DNA from: Hoeflea marina
GTDB lineage: Bacteria > Pseudomonadota > Alphaproteobacteria > Rhizobiales > Rhizobiaceae
Assembly (NCBI RefSeq): GCF_003182275.1
Contig: NZ_QGTR01000002.1
Coordinates: 910,237-974,236, forward strand
DNA length: 64,000 bases
Reading direction: 5' to 3'
Every line of letters starts with the position of its first letter. Positions within the stretch are counted from its first letter, which is position 1. The notes under the pieces are model-generated. The model did no database searches and was not told the DNA's origin. It saw only the letters and a program-made list of their open reading frames with translations. The translations under genes were made by a program, and so were the position numbers. Shown here in pieces: positions 16,949 through 30,800 of the stretch.

Positions 16949-17133
16949 GTTTCGACCATGCTCTTGCACCGGGGATGGCTAGGCGTCACCCCCTCTGTCG
17001 GCGTTGCCTTTGGGCGAGCCACGTGTCTCGCCTGTCCTGCGGACCCCGCCGCAAGGGTGAGAGTGGGCTCAGCGCAAGCGGCGATCTCTGCGGTGCGCCG
17101 CTCGACCCTCCCGATCTCCCTGGAGCCGCCTGG

Positions 17134-18618
17134 ATGACCCATTTCAAGCATGGCCATCAGGCGGACTGGTCGAAGCGGCGCGAAGCCGAGCGGGAGGGTG
17201 TGCTGAGGGCGAAGGCGGCGCCGGAGAGCGAGGCCCAAGGCAAGGTTGAAAGCGAAGCCCAAGACAGGGTTGAAAGCAATGCCGCAGACAAGGTTGCGTG
17301 CAAGGCCAGTAAGACGGTCGCGTGCAAGCCCGGCAGCACCGTTCCGGCGCTTGAGACGGAGCTGGATGCGTTCGGTGACGCGGCGTGGCGGGAGGTGGAC
17401 ACCGACTGGCACTTCAACGGCCGGCCGCAGCAGAAGCCGCCGCCGGGGGATTGGCGAACCTGGCTGCTGATGGGCGGCCGCGGCTCGGGCAAGACCCGGG
17501 CAGGCGCGGAATGGATCCAGGGTCTTGCGAGCGGTGAGATCCCCGGGCTCGCTCACGACGGCCGCATCGCGCTGGTGGCCGAGACGCTGGGCGATGCGCG
17601 CGAGGTGATGGTCGACGGCGTCTCGGGTATACTGGCGGTGGCCAGGAGCCAGCGGCCGGCCTTCGAGGTGACGCGGCGGCGGCTGGTCTGGTCGTCGGGC
17701 GCGGTGGCGCAGCTGTATTCCTCGGAGGATCCCGAGAGCCTGCGCGGACCGCAATTCCACTGCGCCTGGTGCGACGAGCTCGGCAAGTGGCGCCACCAGC
17801 GTGAAAGCTGGGACATGCTGCAGTTCGCGCTCAGGCTTGGGCGGCAGCCGCGGCAACTGGTGACGACGACTCCGAGGGCGACGCCGCTGTTGCTGGCGCT
17901 GGTGAAAGACGAGGCAACGGTTCTGCGCCGCATCCGCTCGGCGGACAACGCGGCCAATCTGGCGCCGGGGTTTCTTGCGGGGCTCGGCGAGCGCTATGGC
18001 GGCACGCGGCTTGGGCGGCAGGAACTCGACGGCGAACTGATCGCCGACCGGGAGGACGGACTGTGGCGGCGCGAGCAGCTGGAAGCACTGGTGGTGCGCC
18101 AGCCGGGACCGATGCGGCGCATCGTGGTGGCGGTGGACCCGCCGGTGGCGGGCGAGGCGAGAGGCTCCTGCTGCGGCATCATTGCCGCCGGCCTGGACGA
18201 GACGGGCCGCGCCGTGGTGCTGGCCGACGCCTCGGTCGAGGGCGCGAGCCCCGCGGGCTGGGCCGGGGCGGTGGTGCGGCTCTACCGGCGTTTCGACGCC
18301 GACTGCGTGGTGGCCGAGATCAACCAGGGCGGCGACATGGTGGCAAGCGTGCTGCGCACGGTGGAGCCGGCACTGCCGGTCAGGCAGGTGCGGGCGACGC
18401 GCGGCAAGTGGCTGCGCGCCGAGCCGGTGGCGGCGCTGTATGAGCAGGGCCGGGTGCTGCACGCCGGGCATTTCGGCGCGCTCGAAGACCAGATGTGCGA
18501 CTTTGGCCCTGACGGCTTGAGTTCCGGCCGCTCCCCGGACCGGCTCGACGCGCTGGTCTGGGCGCTGACCGACCTGGTGCTGGTCCGCAGGAGCGAGCCG
18601 GCGATAAGGCATCTGTGA
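17134..18618 (+). CDS. GTA terminase large subunit (TerL)
   Basis: A 494-residue DNA-packaging motor corresponding to RcGTA gp2. The ATPase domain has Walker A LLMGGRGSGKTRAGAEWI (about residue 112) and a Walker B/coupling segment FHCAWCDELGKW. The C-terminal nuclease domain has acidic residues in VVAVDPPV, CVVAEINQGGD and DRLDALVWALTDL. All look intact. The ATG at 17134 is the start of the conserved MTHFKHGHQADWSKR segment; the 53 codons open upstream are not gene-like. Unusually, residues 32-71 are five copies of an 8-residue unit encoded by 24-bp tandem repeats. About 290 bp of repeats separate it from the next gene, unlike the tight spacing normal in GTA operons. Confidence 0.92.
   Translation: MTHFKHGHQADWSKRREAEREGVLRAKAAPESEAQGKVESEAQDRVESNAADKVACKASKTVACKPGSTVPALETELDAFGDAAWREVDTDWHFNGRPQQKPPPGDWRTWLLMGGRGSGKTRAGAEWIQGLASGEIPGLAHDGRIALVAETLGDAREVMVDGVSGILAVARSQRPAFEVTRRRLVWSSGAVAQLYSSEDPESLRGPQFHCAWCDELGKWRHQRESWDMLQFALRLGRQPRQLVTTTPRATPLLLALVKDEATVLRRIRSADNAANLAPGFLAGLGERYGGTRLGRQELDGELIADREDGLWRREQLEALVVRQPGPMRRIVVAVDPPVAGEARGSCCGIIAAGLDETGRAVVLADASVEGASPAGWAGAVVRLYRRFDADCVVAEINQGGDMVASVLRTVEPALPVRQVRATRGKWLRAEPVAALYEQGRVLHAGHFGALEDQMCDFGPDGLSSGRSPDRLDALVWALTDLVLVRRSEPAIRHL
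17227..17346 (+). repeat. Five 24-bp tandem repeats inside TerL
   Basis: Units at 17227, 17251, 17275, 17299 and 17323, each 24 bp, encode SEAQGKVE, SEAQDRVE, SNAADKVA, CKASKTVA and CKPGSTVP. Units 1-2 are most alike and similarity fades toward the 3' end. They are in frame and add about 40 residues before the ATPase domain. Confidence 0.8.
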
Positions 18619-18911
18619 GGGTATCGGCGGGCAGTCTCCGAGTCCGTCATGCCGGACTCGATGCGGCATCCAGTCACCGCGCGTCCACGCGGTGAAAGAT
18701 CTGGTCGCTTCGGCGAACGCGGAAGTCTGCCGCGCCGCGGAGGCGGCGCCGCTGGGCCCCGGCTCGGGGGCCGGGGTGACGGAGGCCGGGGGCGGGTCTG
18801 AGATACTGCGACCTCGGCGCAGGCAGGGATGGACAGGTCGCACCCGCGAGACTTGCCGACGCTCCGGCAATGCGCGATGACACGCGCACGCAACTCAACG
18901 AGGCAGACAGA

Positions 18912-19199
18912 ATGATCCGGCACATCGTGTTTTTCAGCAGCAAGAGTCCCGAGGACTACGAAACTGTCGGCGCGGGGCTCGACCTGTTGACCGGCACCGG
19001 CATACCCCGCGTGCTGGAGATCGGCCGCAACACCAACACCGATGCGTTGTCGGAGCGGGTGGATTTCGTCGTCTACGGCGAATTCGACGACGAGGCGGCG
19101 CTGGCCGCCTACAAGGCGCATCCACTCTACCAGCGCTCGATCGAGATCGTCCGGCCGCTGCGCGACATGCGCATCGCCGCGGATTTCGCCGCGGGGTGA
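18912..19199 (+). CDS. Dabb family (stress-responsive A/B barrel) protein
   Basis: A 95-residue single-domain protein: MIRHIVFFSSKSPEDYETVG, RVLEIGRNTNTDALSERVDF, GEFDDEAALAAYKAHPLY. This is the dimeric alpha/beta barrel (Dabb) fold seen in stress-responsive and small catalytic proteins; the substrate is unknown. It sits between TerL and portal, where the Rhodobacter GTA has nothing, with about 230-290 bp of degenerate repeat sequence on each side. It therefore looks like an inserted passenger gene, not a structural component. The ATG at 18912 is chosen because the fold begins there; an upstream in-frame ATG at 18870 adds only a polar tail. Confidence 0.82.
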   Translation: MIRHIVFFSSKSPEDYETVGAGLDLLTGTGIPRVLEIGRNTNTDALSERVDFVVYGEFDDEAALAAYKAHPLYQRSIEIVRPLRDMRIAADFAAG

Positions 19200-19433
19200 A
19201 GGGCTGCCAGGCAGAGTCTCGTGTGGCGCGATCCCACGGGTTTCCGTCATGCGCCCGCGCCGCGGACGCGGCGCTGCTGGACCCCGGCTGGGGGGCGGTG
19301 GGGCCTGATGATGATGATGACGGAATGCGCGGTTTGCATCCGTCCGCCGTCCTGCCGGCTCGACCGCAGGCCGACCCTGCCCGACCAGCCACGACCGGCG
19401 GGCTCTTGACGTCAAGATCCTGAGGAGACGCTC

Positions 19434-20618
19434 ATGGCCTGGTCCCTGCGCAACCTGGTGCGGCCGGCGCGCCGGCAGCCGGTCGATGACACCGGCAGGA
19501 AGGCGACGCTGCCGCAAGCCCTGGCGGCGCTGTCCGCCGCTCCCGGCGCTCATTGGTCGGTCCGCTCCTATTCCGCGCTGGCGCGCGAAGGCTTCATGCG
19601 CAACCCGGTCGCGCACCGGGCCGTCAGGATGATCACCGAGGCGGCCGCGTCGGTTCCCTTTGTGCTGTTCGAGGACGGTCGCGAACTCGACAGCCATCCG
19701 CTGCTCGACCTGCTCGACCGGCCGGGCGGATGCGGGTCCGGCACGGAGTTCCTCGAGGCGCTCTACGGCCATCTGCTCATTTCGGGCAATGCCTGGGTCG
19801 AGGCGGTGCCGGGCAGCGAAGGGCTGGCGGGCCTGCATCTGCTCCGGCCGGACCGGGTGCGGGTGATCGAGGATGCCGAGGGCTGGCCGCTGGCTCATGA
19901 ATATGCCGCCGGCGCGGCGCGCCGGCGCTTCGCCGTCGATCCGCGCGCCGGCCACGGATTGCTGCATCTCAAGCTGTTTCACCCGCTCGACGACCACCGA
20001 GGCTTCGCGCCGCTGGAGGCGGCGCAGATGGCGCTGGATCTGCACAATGCCGCCAGCACCTGGAACAAGGCGCTGCTGGACAATTCGGCCCGGCCCTCGG
20101 GCGCGCTGGTCTACCAGCCCAAGGAGGGCGGCAATCTCACCGAGGAGCAATATGCGCGGCTCAAGGCCGAACTCGAGGAAGGGTATCAGGGAGCGCGGCG
20201 TGCCGGGCGACCGATGCTGCTCGAGGGCGGGCTCGACTGGAAGGCAATGGGGCTGACGCCGCGCGACATGGATTTCGTCGCCGCCCGCGATGGCGCCGCC
20301 CGCGACATCGCGCTGGCGCTGGGCGTGCCGCCGATGCTCATCGGCATCCCAGGCGATCTGACCTATTCCAACTACCAGGAGGCCAACCGCGCCTTCTGCC
20401 GGCTCACCGTGCTGCCGCTGATCGCGCGCACGACGCTGGCGCTGAGCAACTGGTTCCGCCCGGTCTACGGCGCCCGGATTCGGCTCGATTTCGATGCCGA
20501 CCGGCTTCCGGGACTGGCTGCCGAGCGCGAGGCACTGTGGACAAGAGTTGGCGCGGCCGATTTCCTCAGTGACGCGGAGAAGCGGGAAGCCGTTGGATAT
20601 CAGCGCGATAGGGATTGA
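19434..20618 (+). CDS. GTA portal protein (HK97 family)
   Basis: A 394-residue protein corresponding to RcGTA gp3. It contains AREGFMRNPVAHRAVRMITE, LLDLLDRPGG, EALYGHLLISGNAWVEAVPG and LALGVPPMLIGIPGDLTYSN, the conserved blocks of phage_portal (HK97-type) proteins. It would form the dodecameric ring through which DNA enters and leaves the head and on which the tail assembles. The length is normal and no frame break is seen. GAGGAG lies 7 nt before the ATG. Confidence 0.93.
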   Translation: MAWSLRNLVRPARRQPVDDTGRKATLPQALAALSAAPGAHWSVRSYSALAREGFMRNPVAHRAVRMITEAAASVPFVLFEDGRELDSHPLLDLLDRPGGCGSGTEFLEALYGHLLISGNAWVEAVPGSEGLAGLHLLRPDRVRVIEDAEGWPLAHEYAAGAARRRFAVDPRAGHGLLHLKLFHPLDDHRGFAPLEAAQMALDLHNAASTWNKALLDNSARPSGALVYQPKEGGNLTEEQYARLKAELEEGYQGARRAGRPMLLEGGLDWKAMGLTPRDMDFVAARDGAARDIALALGVPPMLIGIPGDLTYSNYQEANRAFCRLTVLPLIARTTLALSNWFRPVYGARIRLDFDADRLPGLAAEREALWTRVGAADFLSDAEKREAVGYQRDRD

Positions 20619-20725
20619 ACCGGACTCACCGCGCAAGGAATTTGATTCAGTCTCTCAGCTGCCGGCCGGCTGACGAGTACGTCCGAATGCCTTCTGATTG
20701 CCGCACCGTTTCGAAAGGACAGGTC

Positions 20726-21046
20726 ATGAACCCTCTCGGTTTTGACCCGACGATGATCGCCGCGCGGATTGCCGGCGCGGTGGCCGGCGCGCTGGTGTCC
20801 CTTGCCTACATGCTGCCCAAGGGCCGCAGGGAGGCCGCCACACGGGGCTTCGCCGGCCTGGCCTCCGGTCTGGTGTTCGGCGGGCCTGCCGGGGTGGTGC
20901 TTGCGCAACGGCTGGGCGTGGTCGAGGACCTCAGCCGGCCCGAGATCCTGATGATGGGGGCGGCGGCAGCCAGCATGAGCGCCTGGTGGAGCCTCGGCGT
21001 GCTGGCGCGGATCGCCGACCGATTGGGGCGCGGCAAGGGCGGATAG
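20726..21046 (+). CDS. DUF6107-like small membrane protein of GTA clusters (gp3.5 position)
   Basis: A 106-residue protein between portal and prohead protease. Two hydrophobic segments (about 15-32 and 40-60: ARIAGAVAGALVSLAYMLP, GFAGLASGLVFGGPAGVVLA) and a third weaker one (about 73-95) suggest a small membrane protein. It matches rhizobial DUF6107 proteins found at this position. The role is unknown; a holin-like or head-assembly function would be a guess. The ATG at 20726 is preceded by AAGGA. Confidence 0.72.
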   Translation: MNPLGFDPTMIAARIAGAVAGALVSLAYMLPKGRREAATRGFAGLASGLVFGGPAGVVLAQRLGVVEDLSRPEILMMGAAAASMSAWWSLGVLARIADRLGRGKGG

Positions 21047-21057
21047 GGCTTGGGCCT

Positions 21058-21082
21058 TTCTCCCCCGCAAGGGGGGAGAGCG
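21058..21082. repeat. Partial palindromic intergenic repeat
   Basis: Only the hairpin arm TTTCTCCCCCGCAAGGGGGGAGAG of the repeat family is present. It lies between gp3.5 and the prohead protease. Confidence 0.65.
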
Positions 21083-21141
21083 GCGGCCGTGCAAGCCCGC
21101 CCCCGAAAAACCAAGCAGATTATTCCACGAAAGGACACCCC

Positions 21142-21807
21142 ATGGCTGAGAAAGCGATGGACCGGCGGCAGGAGAAGCGCGTCGACCTGGCGCTTGAGGA
21201 TGTGAGCGGCGACGGGCGGTTTTCAGGCTATGCCAGCCTGTTCGGAACGATGGATCTGGGCCGCGACATCATCGAGCCCGGAGCCTTCGCGCGGTCGCTG
21301 GCAAGCCGCGGACCGGGCGAGGTGCGCATGCTCTACCAGCACGATCCGGAGCAGCCCATCGGCCGCTGGACCACGATCCGCGAGGACACGCGCGGCCTGC
21401 ACGTCGAGGGACGGCTGGCGCTGGGCGTGACGCGCGCCCGCGAGGTGCATGAGCTGATGAAATCCGGCGCGCTCGACGGCCTGTCGATCGGCTTCCAGAC
21501 GGTGAAGTCGCGCGCCGACCGGAAGACCGGGGCCCGGCGCATCCTTGCCGCCGACCTCTGGGAGATCTCGGTGGTCACCTTCCCGATGCAGCCCGGCGCC
21601 CGCGTGACCCAGGTCAAGCAGGCCTCCGCCCGGCGCGATCCTCAAGCCGGGCCTCAAAGCGCGATCCGCCGCGCGACCCGTTCCATCGCTCCGCTCGCAG
21701 GCAGCCGGTCCGGAGCCGACAGGATCTTAATTGCCATGCGGATGCTCCGTGATGCCGGTCGCCGCGCGCCGCGGACCAGATCCTGCAGCGCTTCGGCTTT
21801 CGATTGA
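21142..21807 (+). CDS. GTA prohead protease (HK97 family), altered C-terminus
   Basis: A 221-residue reading frame corresponding to RcGTA gp4. Residues 1-155 show the HK97 prohead protease fold: GRFSGYASLFGTMDLGRDII, PGAFARSL, VRMLYQHDPEQPIGRW (catalytic His), GALDGLSIGFQTV (catalytic Ser) and LWEISVVTFPMQPGA. After about residue 165 the sequence becomes Arg/Ser/Ala-rich with no family resemblance and runs into the degraded region where the capsid gene should begin. The original C-terminus has probably been lost together with the capsid gene. The protease normally cleaves the capsid delta domain, so its substrate is missing here. Confidence 0.85.
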   Translation: MAEKAMDRRQEKRVDLALEDVSGDGRFSGYASLFGTMDLGRDIIEPGAFARSLASRGPGEVRMLYQHDPEQPIGRWTTIREDTRGLHVEGRLALGVTRAREVHELMKSGALDGLSIGFQTVKSRADRKTGARRILAADLWEISVVTFPMQPGARVTQVKQASARRDPQAGPQSAIRRATRSIAPLAGSRSGADRILIAMRMLRDAGRRAPRTRSCSASAFD

Positions 21808-21824
21808 ATCGCAGAAGCGCCGCC

Positions 21825-21945
21825 GGTTCCTGATTTGCCGCATCGTCCTACGACGACGTGAAATTCACTTCGTCTGGAAATGCTTGGTTCCTGATTTGCC
21901 GCATTGTCCTGCGACGAAGTGAAATTCACTTCGTCTGGAAATGCT
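21825..21945. repeat. Two tandem 61-bp palindromic repeats at the missing-capsid site
   Basis: Copies at 21825-21885 and 21886-21945 differ at only a few positions. Each contains the near-perfect palindrome ACGAAGTGAA-A-TTCACTTCGT and begins GGTTCCTGATTTGCCGCAT. Read in reverse, it starts AGCATTTCC, like dispersed intergenic repeats common in Rhizobiales genomes. They lie exactly where the major capsid gene is expected. Confidence 0.85.
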
Positions 21946-22006
21946 CTGGCCCGCCATCGCCATCGAGGCCGGCCCGGCCCCTTCGACCCCGCTGCAGGAG
22001 ATCGCC

Positions 22007-22573
22007 ATGAGCCTGATTTCAACCGAGCCGCCGCTGGTGGAGCCGCTGTCGCTTGCCGACCTGAAGACGCATCTGAGGCTTGAGACGGCCGAAGAGGACG
22101 CGCTGCTGGGCGACCTGATCGCCGCCGCCCGCGGCCATCTCGAGGCCGTGACCGGGCTGGCGCTGATCAGCCAGGGATTCCGGCTGTCGCTCGACGACTG
22201 GCCGGCGGCGAAGGTGATTCACCTGCCGAGGTTTCCGGTGCAGAGCATTGACGGGATTCGGATTTTCGATGCGGCGGGGCTGGCACAGCCGGTGCCGCTT
22301 GCGGGCATGCTGCTCGATTCCGAGTCCCGCCCGGCCCGGCTGGTGCTGGCCCGGATGCCCTTGCCGGGCCAGGCGATCAACGGCATCGAGATCGACTTTT
22401 CCGCCGGCTTCGGCATGGCCACGGAGGTGCCGCCGGAGCTCCGGCGCGCGCTGCTGCTGCACGCGGCGCTGATGTACGAGTTCCGCGGCTCGGTGCCGGT
22501 CGCGATGCAGCCGGCGGCAGTGCCGGCCGGCTACGAGCGGCTGATCTCGCCCTGGACGCGGAGGGCGCTGTGA
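22007..22573 (+). CDS. GTA head-tail connector gp6
   Basis: A 188-residue protein of the phage gp6-like head-tail connector type: LSLADLKTHLRLETAEEDALLGDLIAAARGHLEAVTG, then a middle beta region with RFPVQSIDGIRIFD and a C-terminal ELRRALLLHAALMYEFRG. It corresponds to RcGTA gp6, the adaptor below the portal. CAGGAG precedes the ATG. The stop overlaps the next start (TGATG), and from here the operon is tight through gp8. The upstream neighbour should be the capsid gene but is not. Confidence 0.9.
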   Translation: MSLISTEPPLVEPLSLADLKTHLRLETAEEDALLGDLIAAARGHLEAVTGLALISQGFRLSLDDWPAAKVIHLPRFPVQSIDGIRIFDAAGLAQPVPLAGMLLDSESRPARLVLARMPLPGQAINGIEIDFSAGFGMATEVPPELRRALLLHAALMYEFRGSVPVAMQPAAVPAGYERLISPWTRRAL

Positions 22574-22908
22574 TGGGATGGACCACGCTCGATCCCGGCC
22601 GCCTGACCGCAAGGCTGGTGCTGGAGGCCCCCGACGATCTCGATGACGGCCAGGGCGGCGCCGTGCCCGGCTGGGCAACGGTCGCGAGCCTGTGGGGACT
22701 GGTCGAGCCGCTGGCGGTCCGGCCCGGCGAGGAGGCGAACGCCTTCATCGCGACGGCGACGCACCGGGTGACGATCCGCTTCCGCAACGGCGTGGCGAGC
22801 GGCATGCGCTTCGGGCTCGGCGCCCGCCGGCTCGCGATCCGCACGCTGCGCGATCCCGACGAGGGCCGGCGCTATCTCGTCTGCGATTGCGAGGAGGAAG
22901 GTCGATGA
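22573..22908 (+). CDS. GTA head-tail adaptor (stopper) gp7
   Basis: A 111-residue beta-rich protein: RLTARLVLEAPDDLDDGQGG, WATVASLWGLVEPL, ATHRVTIRFRNGVASGMRF. This is the phage head closure/stopper pattern (SPP1 gp16-like), equivalent to RcGTA gp7. It starts with ATG at 22573, overlapping the gp6 stop, and overlaps the gp8 start by 4 nt. Confidence 0.88.
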   Translation: MGWTTLDPGRLTARLVLEAPDDLDDGQGGAVPGWATVASLWGLVEPLAVRPGEEANAFIATATHRVTIRFRNGVASGMRFGLGARRLAIRTLRDPDEGRRYLVCDCEEEGR

Positions 22909-23303
22909 GCGCCAATCCCCTGCAGAAGGCGGTGGTGGCGCGGCTTGCGGGCGACGCCGCGATCCTCGCCATCGCCGGCCCCGGCCGGGTGCTCGACCGC
23001 GGCGCCACGCGCCGGCTCCTGCCCTGCCTGGTGGTCGGCGACTGGAGTGTCAGCGACTGGTCGACGGGCACCGAGACGGGCGCCGAGCACCGTTTCGAAA
23101 TCGAGATCTGGTCGGAGCACAACGGCCGCCGGCAGGCGATGGATCTGGCGCTGGCCACAGGCGTGGCGCTGCACGACGCGGCGCTGGCGCTCGACGCCGG
23201 ACGGCTCGTCAATCTCAGGCTGGAGCGGACGCGGTCCAGGCGCGAGCCGAGGAGCAACCTCAACACTGCGCGGCTCGAGTTTCGGGCGGTGGTGGAGGGG
23301 TGA
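22905..23303 (+). CDS. GTA tail terminator gp8 (DUF3168)
   Basis: A 132-residue protein with NPLQKAVVARLAGDAAILAI, the DUF3168 beta strands EHRFEIEIWSEHNGRRQAMD and the C-terminal LNTARLEFRAVVEG. It corresponds to RcGTA gp8, which caps the tail tube. GAGGAAGG precedes the ATG. The last 34 bp of the gene recur 649 bp downstream, beyond an inserted two-gene cassette. Confidence 0.9.
   Translation: MSANPLQKAVVARLAGDAAILAIAGPGRVLDRGATRRLLPCLVVGDWSVSDWSTGTETGAEHRFEIEIWSEHNGRRQAMDLALATGVALHDAALALDAGRLVNLRLERTRSRREPRSNLNTARLEFRAVVEG
23270..23303 (+). repeat. Direct repeat: left copy of the gp8 3' end
   Basis: A 34-bp sequence GCGGCTCGAGTTTCGGGC... ending in the gp8 stop codon. It matches 23919-23952 with one mismatch (G at 23288, A at 23937). 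The two copies bracket the inserted cassette. Confidence 0.85.
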
Positions 23304-23320
23304 GATTAGGAGAAATGGCA

Positions 23321-23515
23321 ATGAAAAGAGATGCTGCTGATGCTCGTGGAAATAACGACATCGACATAGAAGTCGTCGAGAGACAAACTGAAAAAGGCGT
23401 GTGGTCAGTTGAGGTGATTGACCACACGGATGGCGGAGCCATCTATCTGACAAAATTTCATGGCGCTTGCTCAAGGGCGCGCGCAACTCAATACGCTGAG
23501 TGGCTTAGAACTTAA
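23321..23515 (+). CDS. Small hypothetical protein in the GTA insertion
   Basis: A 64-residue acidic-then-basic protein beginning MKRDAADARGNNDIDIEVVE and ending QYAEWLRT, with the core GVWSVEVIDHTDGGAIYLTKF. No family recognised. AGGAG lies 8 nt before the ATG at 23321; an ATG two codons earlier is possible. Base composition is clearly lower in GC than the GTA genes around it, a sign of separate origin. Its stop overlaps the stop of the convergent next gene by 2 nt. Confidence 0.65.
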   Translation: MKRDAADARGNNDIDIEVVERQTEKGVWSVEVIDHTDGGAIYLTKFHGACSRARATQYAEWLRT

Positions 23516-23820
23516 TATACGACCTCTGCAGCGATTTTGTCGACACAGGTCTGGGGTCTGGAATGGTTATCCTGTGTATGCCAGCTTCCATCTTTGAGAA
23601 GAACGTCTGTCACTTGTGAAAGAGCCATGCAGCGCCATTCACCTCCTGGTGAAAGTCCTTTCGAGCTTTCACCCGCAAATTGAAATGCTAGCGCTTGTTC
23701 CTTTCCGTTCTTCCAGCCGACAGCATGCACGCAGAGCTCTCGATGTCGCCCCTGGTATGAACAATGCAATTGTTTCTTTTTGTTCACAGATTCGACGAAA
23801 AGTTCAAATACATCAGACAT
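23512..23820 (-). CDS. Small WYL-like hypothetical protein in the GTA insertion
   Basis: A 102-residue protein: MSDVFELFVESVNKKKQLHC, SYQGRHRELCVHAVGWKNGK, ALAFQFAGESSKGLSPGGEW, RCMALSQVTDVLLKDGSWHT. The order Tyr-x-Gly...Arg-x-Leu-x-Val-His-x-x-Gly...Gly-x-Trp-Arg...Leu-Ser-x-Val resembles the SH3-like core of WYL domains, which bind nucleic acids or ligands in bacterial regulators and defence-associated proteins. This is a fold-level guess. The ATG at 23820 has GGAGG at 6-nt spacing, so the longer minus-strand frame is not the gene. It is convergent with the 64-residue gene, on the opposite strand to the GTA operon and less GC-rich. Confidence 0.62.
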   Translation of the reverse strand: MSDVFELFVESVNKKKQLHCSYQGRHRELCVHAVGWKNGKEQALAFQFAGESSKGLSPGGEWRCMALSQVTDVLLKDGSWHTQDNHSRPQTCVDKIAAEVVY

Positions 23821-23918
23821 TCTCATCCTCCAATATTGCTTAGACCAGCTTCGCACTATTTTCGCGTTTCTACCAGCGCACTTCGCAATCGTTGGAACCC
23901 CGGAGTGCTGCACACGGT

Positions 23919-23952
23919 GCGGCTCGAGTTTCGGGCAGTGGTGGAGGGGTGA
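23919..23952 (+). repeat. Direct repeat: right copy of the gp8 3' end
   Basis: It matches the last 34 bp of gp8 with one mismatch. At the protein level similarity extends further upstream: VLHTVRLEFRAVVEG here against NLNTARLEFRAVVEG in gp8, with synonymous changes (CTC/CTG, ACT/ACG). The right copy therefore looks like a diverged gp8 end and not a fresh target-site duplication. Confidence 0.82.
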
Positions 23953-23975
23953 AGGCGGCATCGATCGCGATGCCT

Positions 23976-24024
23976 TTCTCCCCGCTTGCGGGGGAGATGT
24001 CACCGAAGGTGACAGAGGGGGGCA
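23976..24024. repeat. Palindromic intergenic repeat
   Basis: A full copy in the same orientation as that at 16899: a CTCCCCGCTTGCGGGGGAG hairpin, a CACCGAAGGTG hairpin, then ACAGAGGGGGG. An inverted copy follows about 40 bp later. Confidence 0.8.
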
Positions 24025-24064
24025 TGGATCGGCAAAAGCCGCATGTTCGGCGAGAGTGGAGGGT

Positions 24065-24117
24065 TCACCCCCCATCTGTCGGCTGCGCCGACATCTCCCC
24101 CGCAAGGGGGGAGAGTG
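24065..24117. repeat. Palindromic intergenic repeat, opposite orientation
   Basis: CCCCCCATCTGTCGG, a TCGGCTGCGCCGA hairpin and a CTCCCCCGCAAGGGGGGAG hairpin. With the copy at 23976 it forms an inverted pair that could fold into one long hairpin just ahead of the tail-tube gene. Confidence 0.8.
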
Positions 24118-24170
24118 GCCTCCGCGCGTGTGGCTTGCTCCGTTCAAACAACTATTCCAAGGAGATCCCC

Positions 24171-24578
24171 ATGGGTGCGCAGAAGGGCAAGGACCTGTTG
24201 CTGAAGGTCGAGGGCGGGGGCGGGTTTGTCACCGTGGCGGGGCTGAGGGCGCGGCGGCTGGCGTTCAATGCGGAAGCCGTCGACATCACCGACGCGGAAT
24301 CGGCGGGGCGCTGGCGCGAGCTGCTTTCGGGCGCCGGCGTGCAACGGGCCTCGATCTCGGGCGGCGGCATCTTCAAGGATGCCGAGAGCGACGGGCTGGC
24401 GCGAGCTGCGTTCTTCGCCGGCGAGATCCGCACCTGGCAGGCGCTGATCCCGGATTTCGGCACGGTGACCGGACCGTTCCAGATCGTGGCGCTCGACTAT
24501 TCCGGTCGCCACGACGGCGAGGTCGCCTTCGAGATGGCGCTCGAATCGGCCGGCGAACTTGTCTTCGGTGCACTTTGA
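24171..24578 (+). CDS. GTA major tail (tube) protein gp9
   Basis: A 135-residue protein of the TP901-1-like major tail family: MGAQKGKDLLLKVEGGGGFV, TVAGLRARRLAFNAEAVDIT, ESAGRWRELLSGAGVQRASI, SGGGIFKD, GRHDGEVAFEMALESAGELV. It corresponds to RcGTA gp9, stacked hexamers of which form the short tail tube. AAGGAG precedes the ATG at 24171; the longer open frame upstream is repeat sequence. Its stop and the next start share a base, and from here the operon is compact to its end. Confidence 0.93.
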   Translation: MGAQKGKDLLLKVEGGGGFVTVAGLRARRLAFNAEAVDITDAESAGRWRELLSGAGVQRASISGGGIFKDAESDGLARAAFFAGEIRTWQALIPDFGTVTGPFQIVALDYSGRHDGEVAFEMALESAGELVFGAL

Positions 24579-25021
24579 TGCACGCGCCGCCCGCCATCCC
24601 CAACCGCCGTCGCGGCGAGATCGCCGCCCGGCTCGACGGCGAAAGCCGGGTGCTGTGCCTGACGCTGGGCGCGCTGGCGGAGCTCGAAAGCGCCTTCGGC
24701 GTCGACAACCTCGCCGATCTCGGCGCCCGCTTCGGTTCCGGCAAGCTCTCGGCGCGCGACATCATCCGCATCGTCGGCGCGGGCCTGCGCGGCGCCGGCA
24801 ACCGGATCTGCGACGAGGACGTGGCCTGCATGTCGGCCGAGGGCGGGGCGGCCGGATTTGCCAGGATTGCTGCCGAACTGCTGCTCGCTAGCTTCGGCGG
24901 CGAGGCGGAAAGTGCTGCTTCGCCAGATGCTTCCGGCGCAGGCGTGAATCAGTTTCGAGAATCCCGGAAAGGCGCGGAGGTGTCCGCTGCTCCGCGCCCC
25001 CGGCAGCCGCAGGCGGAGTGA
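24578..25021 (+). CDS. GTA gp10 family tail assembly protein
   Basis: A 147-residue protein. Residues 8-105 match the GTA-gp10 (phage_TAC-type) domain: RRRGEIAARLDGESRVLCLT, LGALAELESAFGVDNLADLG and RDIIRIVGAGLRGAGNRI. It is a likely chaperone that coats the tape measure during tail assembly. The Ala/Pro-rich C-terminal 40 residues are variable. The start overlaps the gp9 stop, and the stop overlaps the next GTG start (GTGA). Confidence 0.88.
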   Translation: MHAPPAIPNRRRGEIAARLDGESRVLCLTLGALAELESAFGVDNLADLGARFGSGKLSARDIIRIVGAGLRGAGNRICDEDVACMSAEGGAAGFARIAAELLLASFGGEAESAASPDASGAGVNQFRESRKGAEVSAAPRPRQPQAE

Positions 25022-25287
25022 CCGGATCCGGAGCCTCGACGGAGGCGGCTTTTCCCTGGGCCGCCATCCTCGGCTTCGGCCTCGGCCGCCTGCGGCTGCC
25101 ACCCACGCAATTCTGGGCATTGAGCCTGCCGGAACTGGCAGCCCTCGCCGGACCGCCCGTGGCGGCGCCGGCGGTGACCGGACGGGCGGACCTGGCCCGG
25201 CTGATGCGGCAATTCCCCGACCGGGACGCGACCCCGCAGGAATGCGTCCGCGATACCCGGGAAGAAGGAGAGACCCATGGCCGATGA
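25018..25287 (+). CDS. GTA phage tail assembly chaperone (rcc01693-like)
   Basis: An 89-residue protein with FPWAAILGFGLGRLRLPPTQ and FWALSLPELAAL, the signature of the small rcc01693-type proteins encoded between gp10 and the tape measure in GTAs. Gp10 followed by this overlapping small frame resembles the two-part tail chaperones of siphophages. It starts with GTG inside the gp10 stop and overlaps the tape measure gene by 11 nt. Confidence 0.8.
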   Translation: MTGSGASTEAAFPWAAILGFGLGRLRLPPTQFWALSLPELAALAGPPVAAPAVTGRADLARLMRQFPDRDATPQECVRDTREEGETHGR

Positions 25288-25861
25288 CGGCAATATCGAC
25301 GTGCGCGTCGATCTCGATCTGGGGGGCGCCGAGGAGGCGCTGGCGGAGCTCGAGAAGCGGGCGCAATCCTTCGGGGCTGCACTCGGTGGGGCTCTGAAAT
25401 CGGCGGTCATCGACGGCCGCAGCCTCGACGACGTGCTGCGTCAGCTCGCCACCCGGATGTCGGCCATCGCGCTCAATGCCGGGCTGGCGCCGCTGGAGCG
25501 GCTCATCGGCCAGACCGTGACCGGCCTGATCGGCAGCCTTGGGGCGGTCGCGCCCTTCGCCAAGGGCGGCGTGCCCGGGCGGCTTACGGCCTTTGCCGAG
25601 GGCGGCGTGGTCGGCGCGCCGACGCTGTTTTCCATGCCCGGCGGCGACACCGGCCTGATGGGCGAGGCGGGAGCGGAGGCGATCCTGCCGCTCCGGCGCG
25701 GGCCGGACGGCCGGCTCGGCGTGGCGGCCGGCGGTGGGCAGGCGCCGATGCAGATCACGTTTCAGGTGACGACGCCGGACGCCGCGAGTTTCCGCAAGTC
25801 GGAGGCGCAGATCACCGCCCTGCTGGCCCGCGCCGTCGGTCGCGGCTCACGCGGATTGTAG
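25277..25861 (+). CDS. GTA tail tape measure protein gp11
   Basis: A 194-residue protein: a helical N-terminal part (EEALAELEKRAQSFGAALGG), then the Gly-rich stretch characteristic of tape measures (PFAKGGVPGRLTAFAEGGVV and GEAGAEAILPLRRGPDGRLG) and a helical C-terminus. It matches RcGTA gp11, which is also short (about 220 residues) because GTA tails are short. It would set tail length and help DNA ejection. Confidence 0.9.
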   Translation: MADDGNIDVRVDLDLGGAEEALAELEKRAQSFGAALGGALKSAVIDGRSLDDVLRQLATRMSAIALNAGLAPLERLIGQTVTGLIGSLGAVAPFAKGGVPGRLTAFAEGGVVGAPTLFSMPGGDTGLMGEAGAEAILPLRRGPDGRLGVAAGGGQAPMQITFQVTTPDAASFRKSEAQITALLARAVGRGSRGL

Positions 25862-25870
25862 GAGGCTTGC

Positions 25871-26503
25871 ATGCAGGGCTTTCACGAGGTGCGGCTGCCG
25901 CTGAGGCTGGCGCTCGGCGCCAGCGGCGGACCGGCGCGGCGCACCGACATCGTGGCGCTGTCCAATGGCGGCGAGCACCGCAATGCCCGCTGGGCCGACG
26001 CGCGGCGGCGCTACGATGTCGGCACCGGCCTGCGGGCGGTGGAGGATCTCTATGCGCTCATCGCCTTCTTCGAGGCGCGGCGCGGGCAGTTGTTCGGCTT
26101 CCGCTTCCGCGATCCGATCGACCACGCTTCGGCGGGCTACGGCCAGGCCATCGCGGCCGGCGACCAGGCAATAGGCACCGGCGACGGGGCGAGGACAGTG
26201 TTCGAGCTCCTGAAAGCCTATGGCGACCCCGGCGGTTCGACGGTGCGGCGCATCGCCAAGCCGGTGGCGGGCTCGGTTCGCGTGGCGGTCGGCGGCCTGG
26301 CGCTGCCCGACGGGGCCTATGCGGTGGATGCCGCAAGCGGCCTGGTGACGCTCGCCGAGGCACCCGCGCCGGGGGTGGGGGTCAGCGCCGGCTACGAGTT
26401 CGACATTCCGGTGCGCTTCGACACCGACCGCGTCGAGATCAATCTGGCGGCTTTCCGCGCCGGTTCGGCGCCGAGCGTGCCGCTCGTGGAGATCAGGCCA
26501 TGA
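25871..26503 (+). CDS. GTA distal tail protein gp12 (DUF2460)
   Basis: A 210-residue protein with FHEVRLPLRLALGASGGPAR, TDIVALSNGGEHRNARWADA, DVGTGLRAVEDLYALIAFFE and QLFGFRFRDPIDH, the DUF2460 signature. It corresponds to RcGTA gp12, the distal tail ring joining tube and baseplate. AGGAGG lies upstream of the ATG. The stop overlaps the gp13 start (ATGA). Confidence 0.93.
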   Translation: MQGFHEVRLPLRLALGASGGPARRTDIVALSNGGEHRNARWADARRRYDVGTGLRAVEDLYALIAFFEARRGQLFGFRFRDPIDHASAGYGQAIAAGDQAIGTGDGARTVFELLKAYGDPGGSTVRRIAKPVAGSVRVAVGGLALPDGAYAVDAASGLVTLAEAPAPGVGVSAGYEFDIPVRFDTDRVEINLAAFRAGSAPSVPLVEIRP

Positions 26504-27390
26504 GACAGCTTCCCGACGATCTCGCAGTCCATCTCGAGGGCGAGGCGACGACGACGTGCCACGCCTGGCGGCTCACCCGCAGCGACGGGCTGGTGCTGGG
26601 CTTCACCGACCATGACCGCGACCTCGATTTCGCCGGCTGTCATTTTGCCGCCGAAAGCGGTTTTGTCGGCAGCGAGGTGGAGACGGGATTGGGGCTTGGC
26701 GCCGACTCGGCCGACGTGACGGGCGCGTTTTCCGCTGCCGCCATCACCACGGAGGATCTCACCGACGGCCGCTATGACAGCGCCCGGGTCGAGACCTTCC
26801 TGGTCAACTGGCAGAGCCCGGAGGCGCATCTGCTTGTCTCGACCCGCGAACTGGGCGAGGTGCGGGCCTCGGGCGACGCCTACCGGGCCGAGCTGCGCAG
26901 CCTGGCATCCCGCCTCGACCGGCCGCAGGGCCGCGTCTATGCCAGGCGCTGCGACGCCGATCTCGGCGACCATCGCTGCCGGGTGGCGCTCGACGATCCG
27001 GCCTTTGGCGGCGCGGGCACTGTGAGTGCTGTGCTCGACGAGAGCCGGCTCGCGGTGGCAGGCTTCGAAGGCTTTGCCGACGGCTGGTTCCGACACGGCC
27101 GGCTGCGGTTCGACACCGGGCGCTTTGCCGGGCTCAGCTTCGAGATTTCGGAGCATCGCGCCGGTCCGGGCGGAGTGACGCTGGAGCTGTGGTCGCCGCT
27201 GGCGGCTCTGCCGGAGCCCGAGTCGGCGGTGACGCTGACGGCAGGCTGCGACAAGCTGTTTGCCACCTGCTCCGAAAAGTTTGCCAATATACTGAACTTC
27301 CAGGGCTTTCCCTATCTGCCCGGCAGCGACTTCGCCTATGGCTACGCCGATGGCGACACCGTGCATGACGGCCGGCCGATCGTGCCATGA
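26500..27390 (+). CDS. GTA baseplate hub protein gp13 (DUF2163)
   Basis: A 296-residue protein with TCHAWRLTRSDGLVLGFTDH, GLGADSADVTGAFSAAAITT and DGRYDSARVETFLVNW (DUF2163). The C-terminal domain has four cysteines in YARRCDADLGDHRC and TAGCDKLFATCSEKF, followed by NILNFQGFPYLPG. In RcGTA the hub protein uses this cysteine set to hold an iron centre, and all four are present here. It starts at ATG 26500, overlapping gp12. Confidence 0.93.
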   Translation: MRQLPDDLAVHLEGEATTTCHAWRLTRSDGLVLGFTDHDRDLDFAGCHFAAESGFVGSEVETGLGLGADSADVTGAFSAAAITTEDLTDGRYDSARVETFLVNWQSPEAHLLVSTRELGEVRASGDAYRAELRSLASRLDRPQGRVYARRCDADLGDHRCRVALDDPAFGGAGTVSAVLDESRLAVAGFEGFADGWFRHGRLRFDTGRFAGLSFEISEHRAGPGGVTLELWSPLAALPEPESAVTLTAGCDKLFATCSEKFANILNFQGFPYLPGSDFAYGYADGDTVHDGRPIVP

Positions 27391-27851
27391 GCGGCGGGGC
27401 CGGGATGGAGGGCGTGGGCGGTCAGGGCGAGCGCGTGGTGGCGATCGCGCGCCTCTGGCTCGGCACGCCCTACCGCCACCAGGCGAGCCTCAGGAGCGTG
27501 GGCTGCGACTGCCTCGGCCTGATCCGCGGCGTCTGGGCCGAAGTCACAGGCACGCCCGCCGCCGAGCCGGGACCCTATGCGCCGGACTGGGCCGAGCGTG
27601 CCGGGCGCGAGCGGCTGATCGAGGCGGCGCGGGCCCATTGTGGCGAGGATTTGCCCCGGAGCGAGGCGCTGCCCGGCGACATCCTCGTCTTCCGCTGGCG
27701 CTCCGGATGCGCCGCCAAGCACGCAGGCATTCTCTCCGCGCCGGGCCGCTTCATCCACGCCTACGAGCAGGCGGGGGTTGTCGACTCGCCGCTGACGCCG
27801 GCGTGGAGCAGGCGGGTGGCCGCCGTGTTCCGGTTTCCGCCGGCGGCGTGA
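27387..27851 (+). CDS. GTA cell-wall peptidase gp14 (NlpC/P60)
   Basis: A 154-residue protein: AIARLWLGTPYRHQASLRSV, then GCDCLGLIRGVW with the catalytic Cys, GDILVFRWRSG, and the His in AKHAGIL. These are the NlpC/P60 motifs of RcGTA gp14, a baseplate enzyme that opens the recipient's peptidoglycan. The active-site residues are intact. The start overlaps the gp13 stop (ATGA). Confidence 0.92.
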   Translation: MSGGAGMEGVGGQGERVVAIARLWLGTPYRHQASLRSVGCDCLGLIRGVWAEVTGTPAAEPGPYAPDWAERAGRERLIEAARAHCGEDLPRSEALPGDILVFRWRSGCAAKHAGILSAPGRFIHAYEQAGVVDSPLTPAWSRRVAAVFRFPPAA

Positions 27852-27893
27852 CATCGCAGGGGTTCTCGAATTCTCCGGTGAGACGAGGCTGTC

Positions 27894-30800
27894 ATGGCTG
27901 TCATTCTCCTGCAGGCGGCGGGCGCCGCGCTGGGCGGCATTTTCGGGCCCGTGGGGGCGGCGATCGGCCAGGCGGCGGGCGCGCTCGCCGGCTCTCTGAT
28001 CGACCAGAGCCTGATCGCCTCCACCCGCACCATCCGCGGCCGCGGACTGTCCGGCGCCCGCATTCCGTCCGCCGACGAGGGCGCGCCGATCGCGCGCGTC
28101 TACGGCACCATGCGCATCGCCGGCACGCTGATCTGGGCGACGCGGTTCGAGGAGACGGTCAGCCGCGAGCGGCAGGGCGGCAAGGGCGGGCCGAAGGTGG
28201 AGACCTATCACTATCACGGCAATTTTGCCGTCGGGCTGTGCGAAGGCCCGATAGGACTGGTGCGCCGCGTCTGGGCCGACGGCCGCGAACTCGACCTCAC
28301 CACCATCGAGATGCGCATTCATCGCGGCGAGGCGTCGCAGATGCCCGATCCGCTGATCGAGGCCAAGCAGGGCGCGGGCCGGGCTCCGGCGTGGCGCGGG
28401 CTCGCCTATGCGGTGTTCGAGCGCCTGCCGCTTGACGATTTCGGCAACCGCATCCCGATGCTGCAGTTCGAGGTGGTGCGCGCCGTGGGCGGGCTGGAAC
28501 AGCGCATCGAGGCGGTGGCCGTCATCCCCGGCGCCACCGAGCACGGCTATGCGCCGACCCCGGTGTCGGAGCGGCCGCGCGCCGGCGAGAAGCGCTGGCT
28601 CAACCGCAATTCGAAGCGCGCCGACACGGACTGGACGGCCTCCATCGACGAGGTGCAGGCGCTGTGTCCGAATCTGAAATCGGTGGCGCTGGTCACCGCC
28701 TGGATGGGCACCGACTTGCGCGCCGGGCATTGCGAATTTCATCCTTCGGTCGAGGTGTCGTCGCGGCCGCGCGAGAGCCGGACCTGGCGGGTGGGCAACC
28801 TGACGCGCGCCACCGCGCGGCGGGTCGGCCGCATCGACGGCTCGCCCGCCTATGGCGGCACGCCCGACGACCGCGCCGTCATCGAGGCGATCACCGATCT
28901 GAAGGCACGCGGCCTCGAGGTGGTGCTGTATCCCTTCGTGCTGATGGACATCGTGCCCGGCAACGGCCTGCCGGATCCATATGGCGGGGCCGAACAGGCG
29001 GCATTGCCCTGGCGCGGACGGCTGACATGCATTCCGGCGCCCGGGCGGCCGGGCAGCCCCGACGGCACGGTGGCGATCGACGCCGGGATCGCCGCCCTCT
29101 GCGGCACTGCCGCGCCCGACGACATCCATGTCGCGGACGGCGCGGTCGGCTGGCGCGCCGGGATCGATGCCGGCTACCGGCGGATGATCCTGCACCATGC
29201 CGGGCTGGCGCAGGCCGCGGGCGGCGTCGACGGGTTCCTCATCGGCTCGGAGATGGTTGGCCTGACCCGGCTCAGGAACGCCGAGGGCGGTTTTCCCTTT
29301 GTCGACGCGCTGGCGGCACTCGCCGCCGACGTCAAGGCGATGCTGGGACCTGCGACCACGGTGACCTACGCGGCCGACTGGAGCGAGTATTCCGGCTTCC
29401 GGCCCGACGACGGTTCGGGCGACGTGCATTTCCATCTCGATCCGCTGTGGGCGAACCCCGCCATCGGCGCGGTCGGCATCGACAACTACATGCCGCTGTC
29501 GGACTGGCGCGACGGCGACCTCGACGCGGGCAACCCGGACGGCGCGGTGCACGCCAACGACCGGGCGGCGCTCAGGGCGGCGATCGAAGGCGGCGAGGGA
29601 TTCGACTGGTCCTACCGCGACGCGGGAGAGCGCGCCGACCGGCTGCGCACGCCGATCGGCGACGGCCTTGCCGGCAAGGACTGGGTCTACCGGGTCAAGG
29701 ACATCCGCGGCTGGTGGCAGAACCCGCATTTCGACCGGGTCGGCGGCGCGGAACGGACCGAACCGACCGCCTGGGTCCCGCGGTCGAAGCCGGTCTGGTT
29801 CACCGAACTCGGCTGCCCGGCCGTCGACAAGGCGGCGGGCCAGCCAAATGTGTTTCCGGATCCGAAATCGGCGGAGGGCGGGCTGCCGCATTTTTCCACC
29901 GGCGCCCACGACGACGCGGCGCAGCGCGGCTTTCTCTCCGCCCATCTCGACCACTGTGCTGGGCCCGCCAATGCCGACGGCATGGTCGAGACCGGCCGCA
30001 TCCATCTCTGGGCCTGGGACGCGCGGCCCTATCCGGCGTTTCCGGCGCGCGCCGACCTCTGGGCCGACGGCGGCCACTGGCGCACCGGCCACTGGCTTAA
30101 CGGCCGGCTCGGCACGGCCGATCTCGGCGAACTGATCGGCGCCATCCTCGCCGACGCGGGATTCGCCGATTTCGACGTCAGTGGCGTCGACGGCGCCGTG
30201 TCCGGCTATGTGGCGGGCGACGCCAGTTCGGCGCGTGCGCTGCTCGCCCCGCTCATCGACGCCTTCGCCATCGACGTCCATGAGGGGCCGGGGGGCCTGG
30301 TCTTCGTCTCGCGGCTTCGCGGCGGACGGGCGGCCGAGGCGCTCGCGGTCATCGCCGACCCGGTTGATGGACCGCTCGCCGAGGAGACGCGGGCGCAGGA
30401 GAGCGAGCTCGCCAACGAGGCGGTGATCGGCTTCATCGATCCCGACATCGACCACGGTCCGGCCAGCGCGCGCTCGCGGCGGCTGTCGGGGCCGCCCAAT
30501 CTCCGGCAGTGGGCGTTGCCGGCGGCGCTTGATGCCGGACTGGCGCGACGGACGGCGGACGACTGGTTGCGCGACCACTGGGCCGGACGACGGCGGTTGA
30601 GCTTCGCGCTGCCGCCGAGCAGGCCGGACATCGAGGCAGGTGACATCGTCCGGCTGACGCTCGCTGGCGCCCCCGGCGGGCGCTTCCGGGTGCTCCGCGT
30701 CGAGGACGGCGTGAGCCGCCGGGTGGAGGCGGTGGGCCACGTGGCCCTGCCGGCGCGCGACGACGGCGCGGCGATCGATGCCCGCGCCTCCGACGCGGCG

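Follow-up and report, generated by a model that had tools for sequence, protein, structure and literature searches.

The genes of RcGTA, the GTA of R. capsulatus, are described as spread over five loci, of which the head-tail cluster holds 17 genes (PMC10883770), and its capsid, the product of g5, is named Rcc01687 (PMC7296036). RcGTA head-spike genes are reported to adjoin capsule genes in R. capsulatus (PMC10218006), and their position sets a precedent for a link of GTA surface parts with sugar loci. A further described group against which the present locus can be set is that of the family 3 (natural product) encapsulins, which have the HK97 fold, carry the annotation PF05065 and are encoded inside biosynthetic gene clusters (PMC8346489). 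A literature search of titles and abstract openings, conducted mostly outside subscription journals, returned no paper on GTA capsids that are encoded among polysaccharide genes or otherwise away from the head-tail cluster.

The head-tail cluster and the scar at its capsid site

The window analysed here, a stretch of 64,000 nt from Hoeflea marina (assembly GCF_003182275.1, contig NZ_QGTR01000002.1, positions 910,237-974,236 of the forward strand), carries an RcGTA-type head-tail cluster at 16975-31739. Pfam, PHROG and tblastn searches revealed the gene order and families of RcGTA from the terminase large subunit (TerL) to the GTA_TIM megatron, with the terminase, portal, protease, adaptor and tail genes all present and the major capsid gene between protease and gp6 missing. 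Thus, the statement in the first-pass annotation that the remaining structural genes stand in canonical order is borne out by the Pfam and PHROG assignments. Unlike RcGTA, H. marina encodes its capsid outside the head-tail cluster; the only capsid found, a homologue of Rcc01687, lies on a different contig (C3) and is of another capsid lineage.

All genes of the cluster are on the plus strand. TerL (16975-18618; Pfam Terminase_6N/6C) is followed by the portal (gp3; 19434-20618; PF04860, 8e-80), a DUF6107 protein whose true start may be later (20615-21046; PF19602) and the prohead protease (gp4; 21142-21807; PF04586, Peptidase_S78). A Dabb-domain gene is situated at 18870-19199, between TerL and portal. 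Beyond the expected capsid site lie the head-tail adaptor (gp6; 22007-22573; PF05135, phrog_442), the head completion or closure protein (gp7; 22570-22908; PF05521), the tail terminator (gp8; 22905-23303; phrog_176) and, with estimated starts, the major tail protein (gp9; 24168-24578; PF06199) and a gp10-type protein (24578-25021). The latter was recognised from tblastn matches to the equivalent position in relatives (query o23780, from about residue 270 onwards), as was the small protein that separates it from the tape measure (25018-25287; query o25018) and that we take to be of the gp10.1 type. The cluster concludes with a short tape measure protein (25277-25861; PHROG tape-measure matches), a DUF2460 distal tail protein (25871-26503; PF09343, 7e-82), a baseplate hub protein (26500-27390; PF09931/PF09356), an NlpC/P60 tail peptidase (27387-27851; PF00877) and the Rcc01698-like megatron (27894-31739; PF13547, 9e-130; PF23666). 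Every one of these genes is an open frame, and the head-tail frames other than the capsid are open over approximately 15 kb. An insert at 23304-24167, between gp8 and the major tail gene, holds ORFs at 23300-23515 (plus) and 23512-24147 (minus), and the end of gp8 (LEFRAVVEG) is duplicated within it, just before position 23952.

Only 199 bp separate the protease stop (21807) from the gp6 start (22007), in agreement with the gap of about 200 bp first remarked on, and six-frame translation of 21601-22010, judged by eye, contained no capsid-like sequence in any frame; the reported absence of an HK97 capsid between the two genes therefore holds. A blastn search of 21641-22030 against 17 related loci returned the gp6 leader as top matches (E 6e-7 and 2e-6), one 52-base match elsewhere (E 3e-4) and otherwise short, scattered matches. 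The end of the protease frame, previously flagged as abnormal, has lost its natural stop: the protein aligns with four neighbouring-genus proteases, of 183 to 187 residues, to approximately residue 183 (AIRRATR occupies residues 174-180), and its frame continues for some 38 residues further. Since protease homology ceases at about 21690 and gp6-leader homology resumes at about 21984, the capsid gene and the protease stop have been replaced by about 300 bp, a scar that we place, with approximate boundaries, at 21691-21984. The two tandem palindromic repeats noted at the site are present at 21825-21945 and are, in addition, copies of a dispersed genome repeat; the 61-bp copies are 95% matching and differ at 4 of 61 positions, with related sequence extending upstream to about 21782. 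At least 41 matches to this repeat occur in the genome with the scar site counted (40 of 72 first-look candidates scored). A role of the palindromes as regulatory RNA found no match in Rfam. Upstream of the repeats, approximately 90 bp of the scar are unexplained. In the assembly, the native capsid gene is deleted from the cluster.

A search for the portal in 18 same-genus genomes (that of the window included) gave 15 matches. When the locus was compared in relatives, as had been proposed at the outset for sister strains, a capsid was found directly after the protease in 13 of 13 fetched same-genus loci; gp6 then follows in 12, the thirteenth (L069) being cut by the end of the fetched stretch, which stops inside the capsid. 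Likewise, the protease lies just upstream of a related capsid in 66 of 66 loci from a titled genome collection. Identity to the counterparts in the 13 same-genus loci is 72-83% for TerL, portal and protease of the window (portal 72-77%). Portal and capsid positions were also compared genome by genome, by eye, among the matches listed. G646 was discarded as a candidate split cluster, its capsid lying only 0.6 kb from a contig end.

Two relatives resemble the window in having lost the capsid. The cluster of G553 (L131, G553:C1:580000-596000) is broken, passing from portal to gp7 without protease, capsid or gp6, and its genome gave no capsid match at 1e-60. In G709 (L132, G709:C60), which is of the same genus as G600, TerL, portal and DUF6107 are present; the 2.2 kb that remain before the contig end, which interrupts the cluster, hold neither protease nor capsid, and the genome is without a PF05065 match. 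As a replacement was found in neither, capsid loss alone does not imply substitution.

To assess the rate of change of the remaining genes, identity to outgroups was compared between the window and the genus. The values were 63.1% for the window versus 62.7% for the genus in the portal, 60.5 versus 61.0% in the protease, 60.4 versus 62.4% in TerL, 45.7 versus 47.3% in gp6, 44.3 versus 43.4% in gp7 and 38.0 versus 38.5% in gp8. There is thus no general acceleration of the window cluster relative to its relatives, with TerL and gp6 lower by 2.0 and 1.6 points, respectively.

The capsid gene on contig C3

The H. marina genome contains a single PF05065 match, at C3:464993-466237 on the minus strand (E 1.6e-84). 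Its reading frame comprises 426 codons without a stop and encodes 415 amino acids from its ATG. The protein aligns over residues 99-415 with Rcc01687, the RcGTA capsid of solved structure (E 4.6e-86), and in comparison with relatives its N-terminal region resembles the pro-domain of GTA capsids; the gene has the features of a GTA major capsid (g5, HK97 fold). A whole-genome search for an HK97 capsid, recommended in the first-pass annotation, therefore succeeded in part: a capsid was found, but a divergent, stand-alone one instead of a gene close to rhizobial GTA gp5. Against 14 same-genus capsids (G005 and G008 among them, whose contexts lie outside the fetched loci) its identity is 51.7-53.8%, whereas those 14 share 82.4-97.1% with one another. 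An identity of about 52-54%, set against the 72-83% of the window's TerL, portal and protease, argues that the C3 gene is not the missing gene relocated. The gene does not descend from the genus's own GTA capsid according to identity, tree and AU test, the last of which (35 rows) rejected a grouping with four genus capsids at p 7e-81.

Searches with TerL, portal, DUF6107, protease, gp6 and gp7 gave no match in the 19.9 kb around the C3 capsid, and with 0 of 6 other GTA head-region proteins matched in this stretch, a prophage origin was rejected. All 457 matched phage records were, in addition, less than 60% identical (the best-ranked 50.5%), and a plasmid source was likewise rejected (all 195 matched records below 60%, the best-ranked 53.0%). 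The two best phage records fall among GTA capsids in the 69-row tree described below. Pfam analysis of six neighbours on C3 identified three sugar- or methyl-transfer genes, two genes without a match and one DUF2793 fibre-type protein. Defence models left the capsid unmatched and gave weak matches for the neighbouring methyltransferase and Sel1 proteins.

A lineage of stand-alone capsids and its surroundings

The nearest relatives found for the C3 capsid are also solitary, namely those of G600 (57% identity), G803 (60%) and G1114, G1074 and G1075 (61-62%), the last three of which were reached via G803. In stretches of 14-20 kb around these five, the window's GTA proteins match only the capsid. 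Each of the five genomes also carries a native capsid inside a GTA cluster. We use the term stand-alone GTA-like capsid lineage for a class defined in the present analysis, whose members group with solitary capsids and have polysaccharide genes, and no portal or protease, nearby; the C3 capsid shows all of these features.

In a tree of 69 rows, the six solitary capsids formed one clade (support 100/99), within which the C3 capsid and four capsids of another family were united at 100/100. The clade belongs to a larger group (100/96) whose capsids are mainly from the same order, with weakly supported nearest neighbours (83/88), and the native capsids of the same genomes are placed elsewhere, with their own relatives. 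Rows L122, L124, L125 and L126 were excluded from all trees after the first, and the pairing of the C3 capsid with the distant long branch L125 in that first tree was not used for its placing. The 69-row tree also omits eleven further rows, namely L110 and ten of the genus, and the AU test drew its 35 rows from those 69. A larger tree of 224 rows, 80 of them from viral contigs, added no further sequence to the clade (local support 1.0). In each of the best 80 of 593 IMG/VR loci among the matches listed, the capsid is accompanied by another GTA gene, and none of these capsids falls inside the solitary clade; earlier scans of titled genomes and IMG/VR with the C3 capsid alone returned no relative. 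G600 is the loosest member, its shell being 57.5% identical to the other five and 57.5% to GTA capsids. Identity thus does not place it closer to the other five than to GTA capsids, and it is the trees that make it a member.

The lineage is rare among the genomes searched. A search with the C3 capsid at 1e-134 matched 5 of 394 family genomes, two with solitary capsids (H. marina and G600) and three within GTA clusters. Among 397 order genomes 19 matched at 1e-132 (H. marina included), and eight further contexts fetched from the order comprised one solitary capsid (G803) and seven in GTA clusters. At least 4 of the 87 genomes searched in G803's family carry a stand-alone capsid. This patchy distribution suggests horizontal transfer, to which an old duplication followed by many losses is the alternative.

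The domains of the C3 capsid differ in their affinities. Its shell (residues 116-415) is 66.9% identical to the other solitary capsids versus 55.5% to 212 other capsid rows. The pro-domain region (residues 26-115) is 43.6% identical to the 212 rows, 49.6% to four genus rows and 39.3% to the other solitary capsids, making it narrowly the most GTA-like of the six (the others show 33.1-42.5% to the 212 rows, with G600 at 42.5%). A tree of this region of 90 residues did not recover the stand-alone clade, and its GTA-likeness is consequently only suggestive. With regard to selection, the stand-alone capsids of G1074 and G1075 yielded dS 0.143, dN 0.009 and dN/dS 0.064, comparable values being 0.063 for the native capsids of this pair and 0.050 for the portal. 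The stand-alone capsid is thus under purifying selection in this one pair. For the C3 capsid, which has no close pair, distant ratios ranged from 0.34 to 0.67 and were judged unreliable at such distance in GC-rich genes.

Pfam scans placed polysaccharide-type genes near all six stand-alone capsids. On C3 the neighbours are of the RmlA, RmlB and glycosyltransferase types. G600 has four glycosyltransferases, three of group 1 and one of family 2, together with a phage integrase; in G803 a polysaccharide flippase-type protein accompanies a glycosyltransferase and an epimerase; and G1114 has genes of the RmlA, RmlB and RmlC types. G1074 has a family-2 glycosyltransferase as well as a UDP-glucose dehydrogenase, and G1075 has an epimerase by Pfam together with a UDP-glucose dehydrogenase by 98% identity to that of G1074 (the Rml names being our interpretation of Pfam families). 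Polysaccharide baits, searched over 15 kb, had no match in any of 72 GTA-cluster loci, nor did they match the window. This control is weak because nearly all baits came from the stand-alone loci and the matches there are partly self-hits (essentially so in G1074 and G1075); independent support for the polysaccharide context is the Pfam scans. A Sel1-repeat gene lies upstream in G803, G1074 and G1075 (by Pfam in two, by similarity in the third), and an RmlB-type protein is common to the C3 locus and G1114. As G1074 and G1075 represent one event, and neighbours such as Sel1 and the RmlB-type protein are shared, the six loci are not independent. Within 5.5 kb, crude gene calls gave no neighbour other than the capsid common to all six, and the 350 bases preceding each of the six capsids contained no CtrA-like box.

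A DUF2793 protein is encoded 1.3 kb upstream of the C3 capsid on the same strand (L056:12058-13458, G000:C3); DUF2793 is described as the GTA tail-fibre family (PMC10883770). In G600 the phage integrase gene (L127:13794-14741) lies about 4 kb from the stand-alone capsid, and the region that bears it is perhaps a genomic island. Pfam analysis of the C3 neighbours identified neither a head-spike base nor a spike-fibre gene, only the DUF2793 protein of tail-fibre type; unlike the head-spike locus, the gene that lies among polysaccharide genes in H. marina is the capsid itself.

Encapsulins are not known to possess a pro-domain, and a dedicated cargo gene lies beside the shell gene. The stand-alone capsids are PF05065 proteins, like the family 3 encapsulins. 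Unlike these, they are nested among GTA capsids, retain the GTA N-terminal region and occur in polysaccharide regions, and no cargo gene was recognised beside them. The C3 capsid accordingly does not fit the description of an encapsulin, possessing a GTA-type N-terminal region and, by the crude gene calls, no neighbour common to the six loci.

Proposed origin of a GTA head in H. marina

The first-pass annotation offered three possibilities: a dead GTA, a capsid encoded elsewhere or a tail structure kept for another use. A capsid encoded elsewhere has the best support of the three, given the full-length GTA-type gene on C3. Our preferred explanation, to which we assign a probability of roughly 0.5, is that the native capsid became redundant and was then lost, and that the stand-alone capsid from C3 now builds the GTA head in trans. 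We infer both this head-building and the horizontal transfer, together with the following order of events. An ancestor would have acquired a second, stand-alone capsid; the two would have coexisted; the native copy, having become dispensable, would have been lost at the repeat-rich site; and the cluster-encoded portal, protease and adaptor would now assemble with the capsid from C3. This reading is the most economical because it explains both the tolerated loss and the retention of the remaining genes, and the five genomes with a stand-alone and a native capsid represent the expected intermediate state. It is favoured by the sole PF05065 gene of the genome being full-length, open and of GTA type, by the open cluster with outgroup distances about as in the genus, by the pro-domain region (narrowly the most GTA-like of the six), by the tail-fibre-family gene 1.3 kb away, and by the 100/99 clade with purifying selection in G1074 and G1075. 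Against it stand the capsid losses without a replacement in G553 and G709, the absence of a CtrA-like box from the 350 bases before the C3 capsid, a shell domain only about 55% identical to genus capsids, the pro-domain tree without the stand-alone clade and the tree-based membership of G600. Furthermore, as the other five hosts keep their native capsid, the stand-alone protein may be unable to replace it.

The loss of the capsid and its leader together with the protease stop could also belong to a dead or dying GTA, in which loss of the native capsid is recent, DNA-filled heads do not form, the C3 capsid does not serve the GTA and the other genes are open through recency only. We regard this as possible, if rather unlikely. 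G553 and G709 (the latter with its cluster cut by a contig end) demonstrate that capsids are lost without a replacement being found, the extra insert between gp8 and the major tail gene fits with decay, and a recently dead GTA would look alike in most respects and leave no trace. TerL and gp6 are slightly further from outgroups than in the genus. Conversely, the other head-tail frames are open over some 15 kb without general acceleration, and H. marina, in contrast to G553 and G709, has a full-length GTA-type capsid gene. A doubtful alternative is that the stand-alone lineage was recruited to a non-GTA job, for example as a protein shell or decoy in surface-polysaccharide synthesis, unrelated to the deletion in the GTA cluster. 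All six capsids lie near polysaccharide genes, five hosts also keep the native GTA capsid and three have a Sel1-repeat gene upstream; retention of the pro-domain-like N-terminal region and the lack of a further neighbour common to all six (crude gene calls, 5.5 kb) speak against such a job.

An error or omission of assembly, with the native capsid at the site or in unassembled sequence after collapse at the tandem repeats, appears improbable. The site does hold a repeat with at least 41 genome matches, in an assembly that is 96.6% complete in 20 contigs. A collapse would, however, have left the protease stop and the capsid leader, about 90 bp of unexplained sequence precede the repeats, the two copies differ at 4 of 61 positions and the contig is continuous across the site. 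Finally, the view that the native capsid was relocated to C3 and evolved fast thereafter is strongly rejected by identity, tree and AU test, and we consider it highly improbable; it could draw on the long branch in the first tree, but the C3 protein clusters with stand-alone capsids from other genera and from another family, the AU test opposes the genus grouping (p 7e-81) and the five other hosts of the lineage hold native copies too.

By analogy with the RcGTA head-spike genes beside capsule genes, we tentatively offer a broader proposal that we consider unlikely: GTA capsids may have left the cluster as a mobile lineage of spare coats that travels in surface-polysaccharide loci, the shell being inherited with the sugar coat that it must meet. 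Most hosts would keep both coats, and H. marina would rely wholly on the spare.

The capsid serves as a marker of GTA clusters, and one GTA survey selected and reoriented genomes by this gene (PMC9836097). In H. marina this marker and the cluster lie on different contigs, and a genome of this kind might be recorded as being without a complete cluster. If supply in trans is true, the main structural protein of a GTA has been swapped for one of a foreign lineage, and the interchangeability of GTA parts, as well as GTA loss and repair, become testable. The occurrence of the lineage near polysaccharide genes suggests a testable link between GTA shells and cell-surface sugars.
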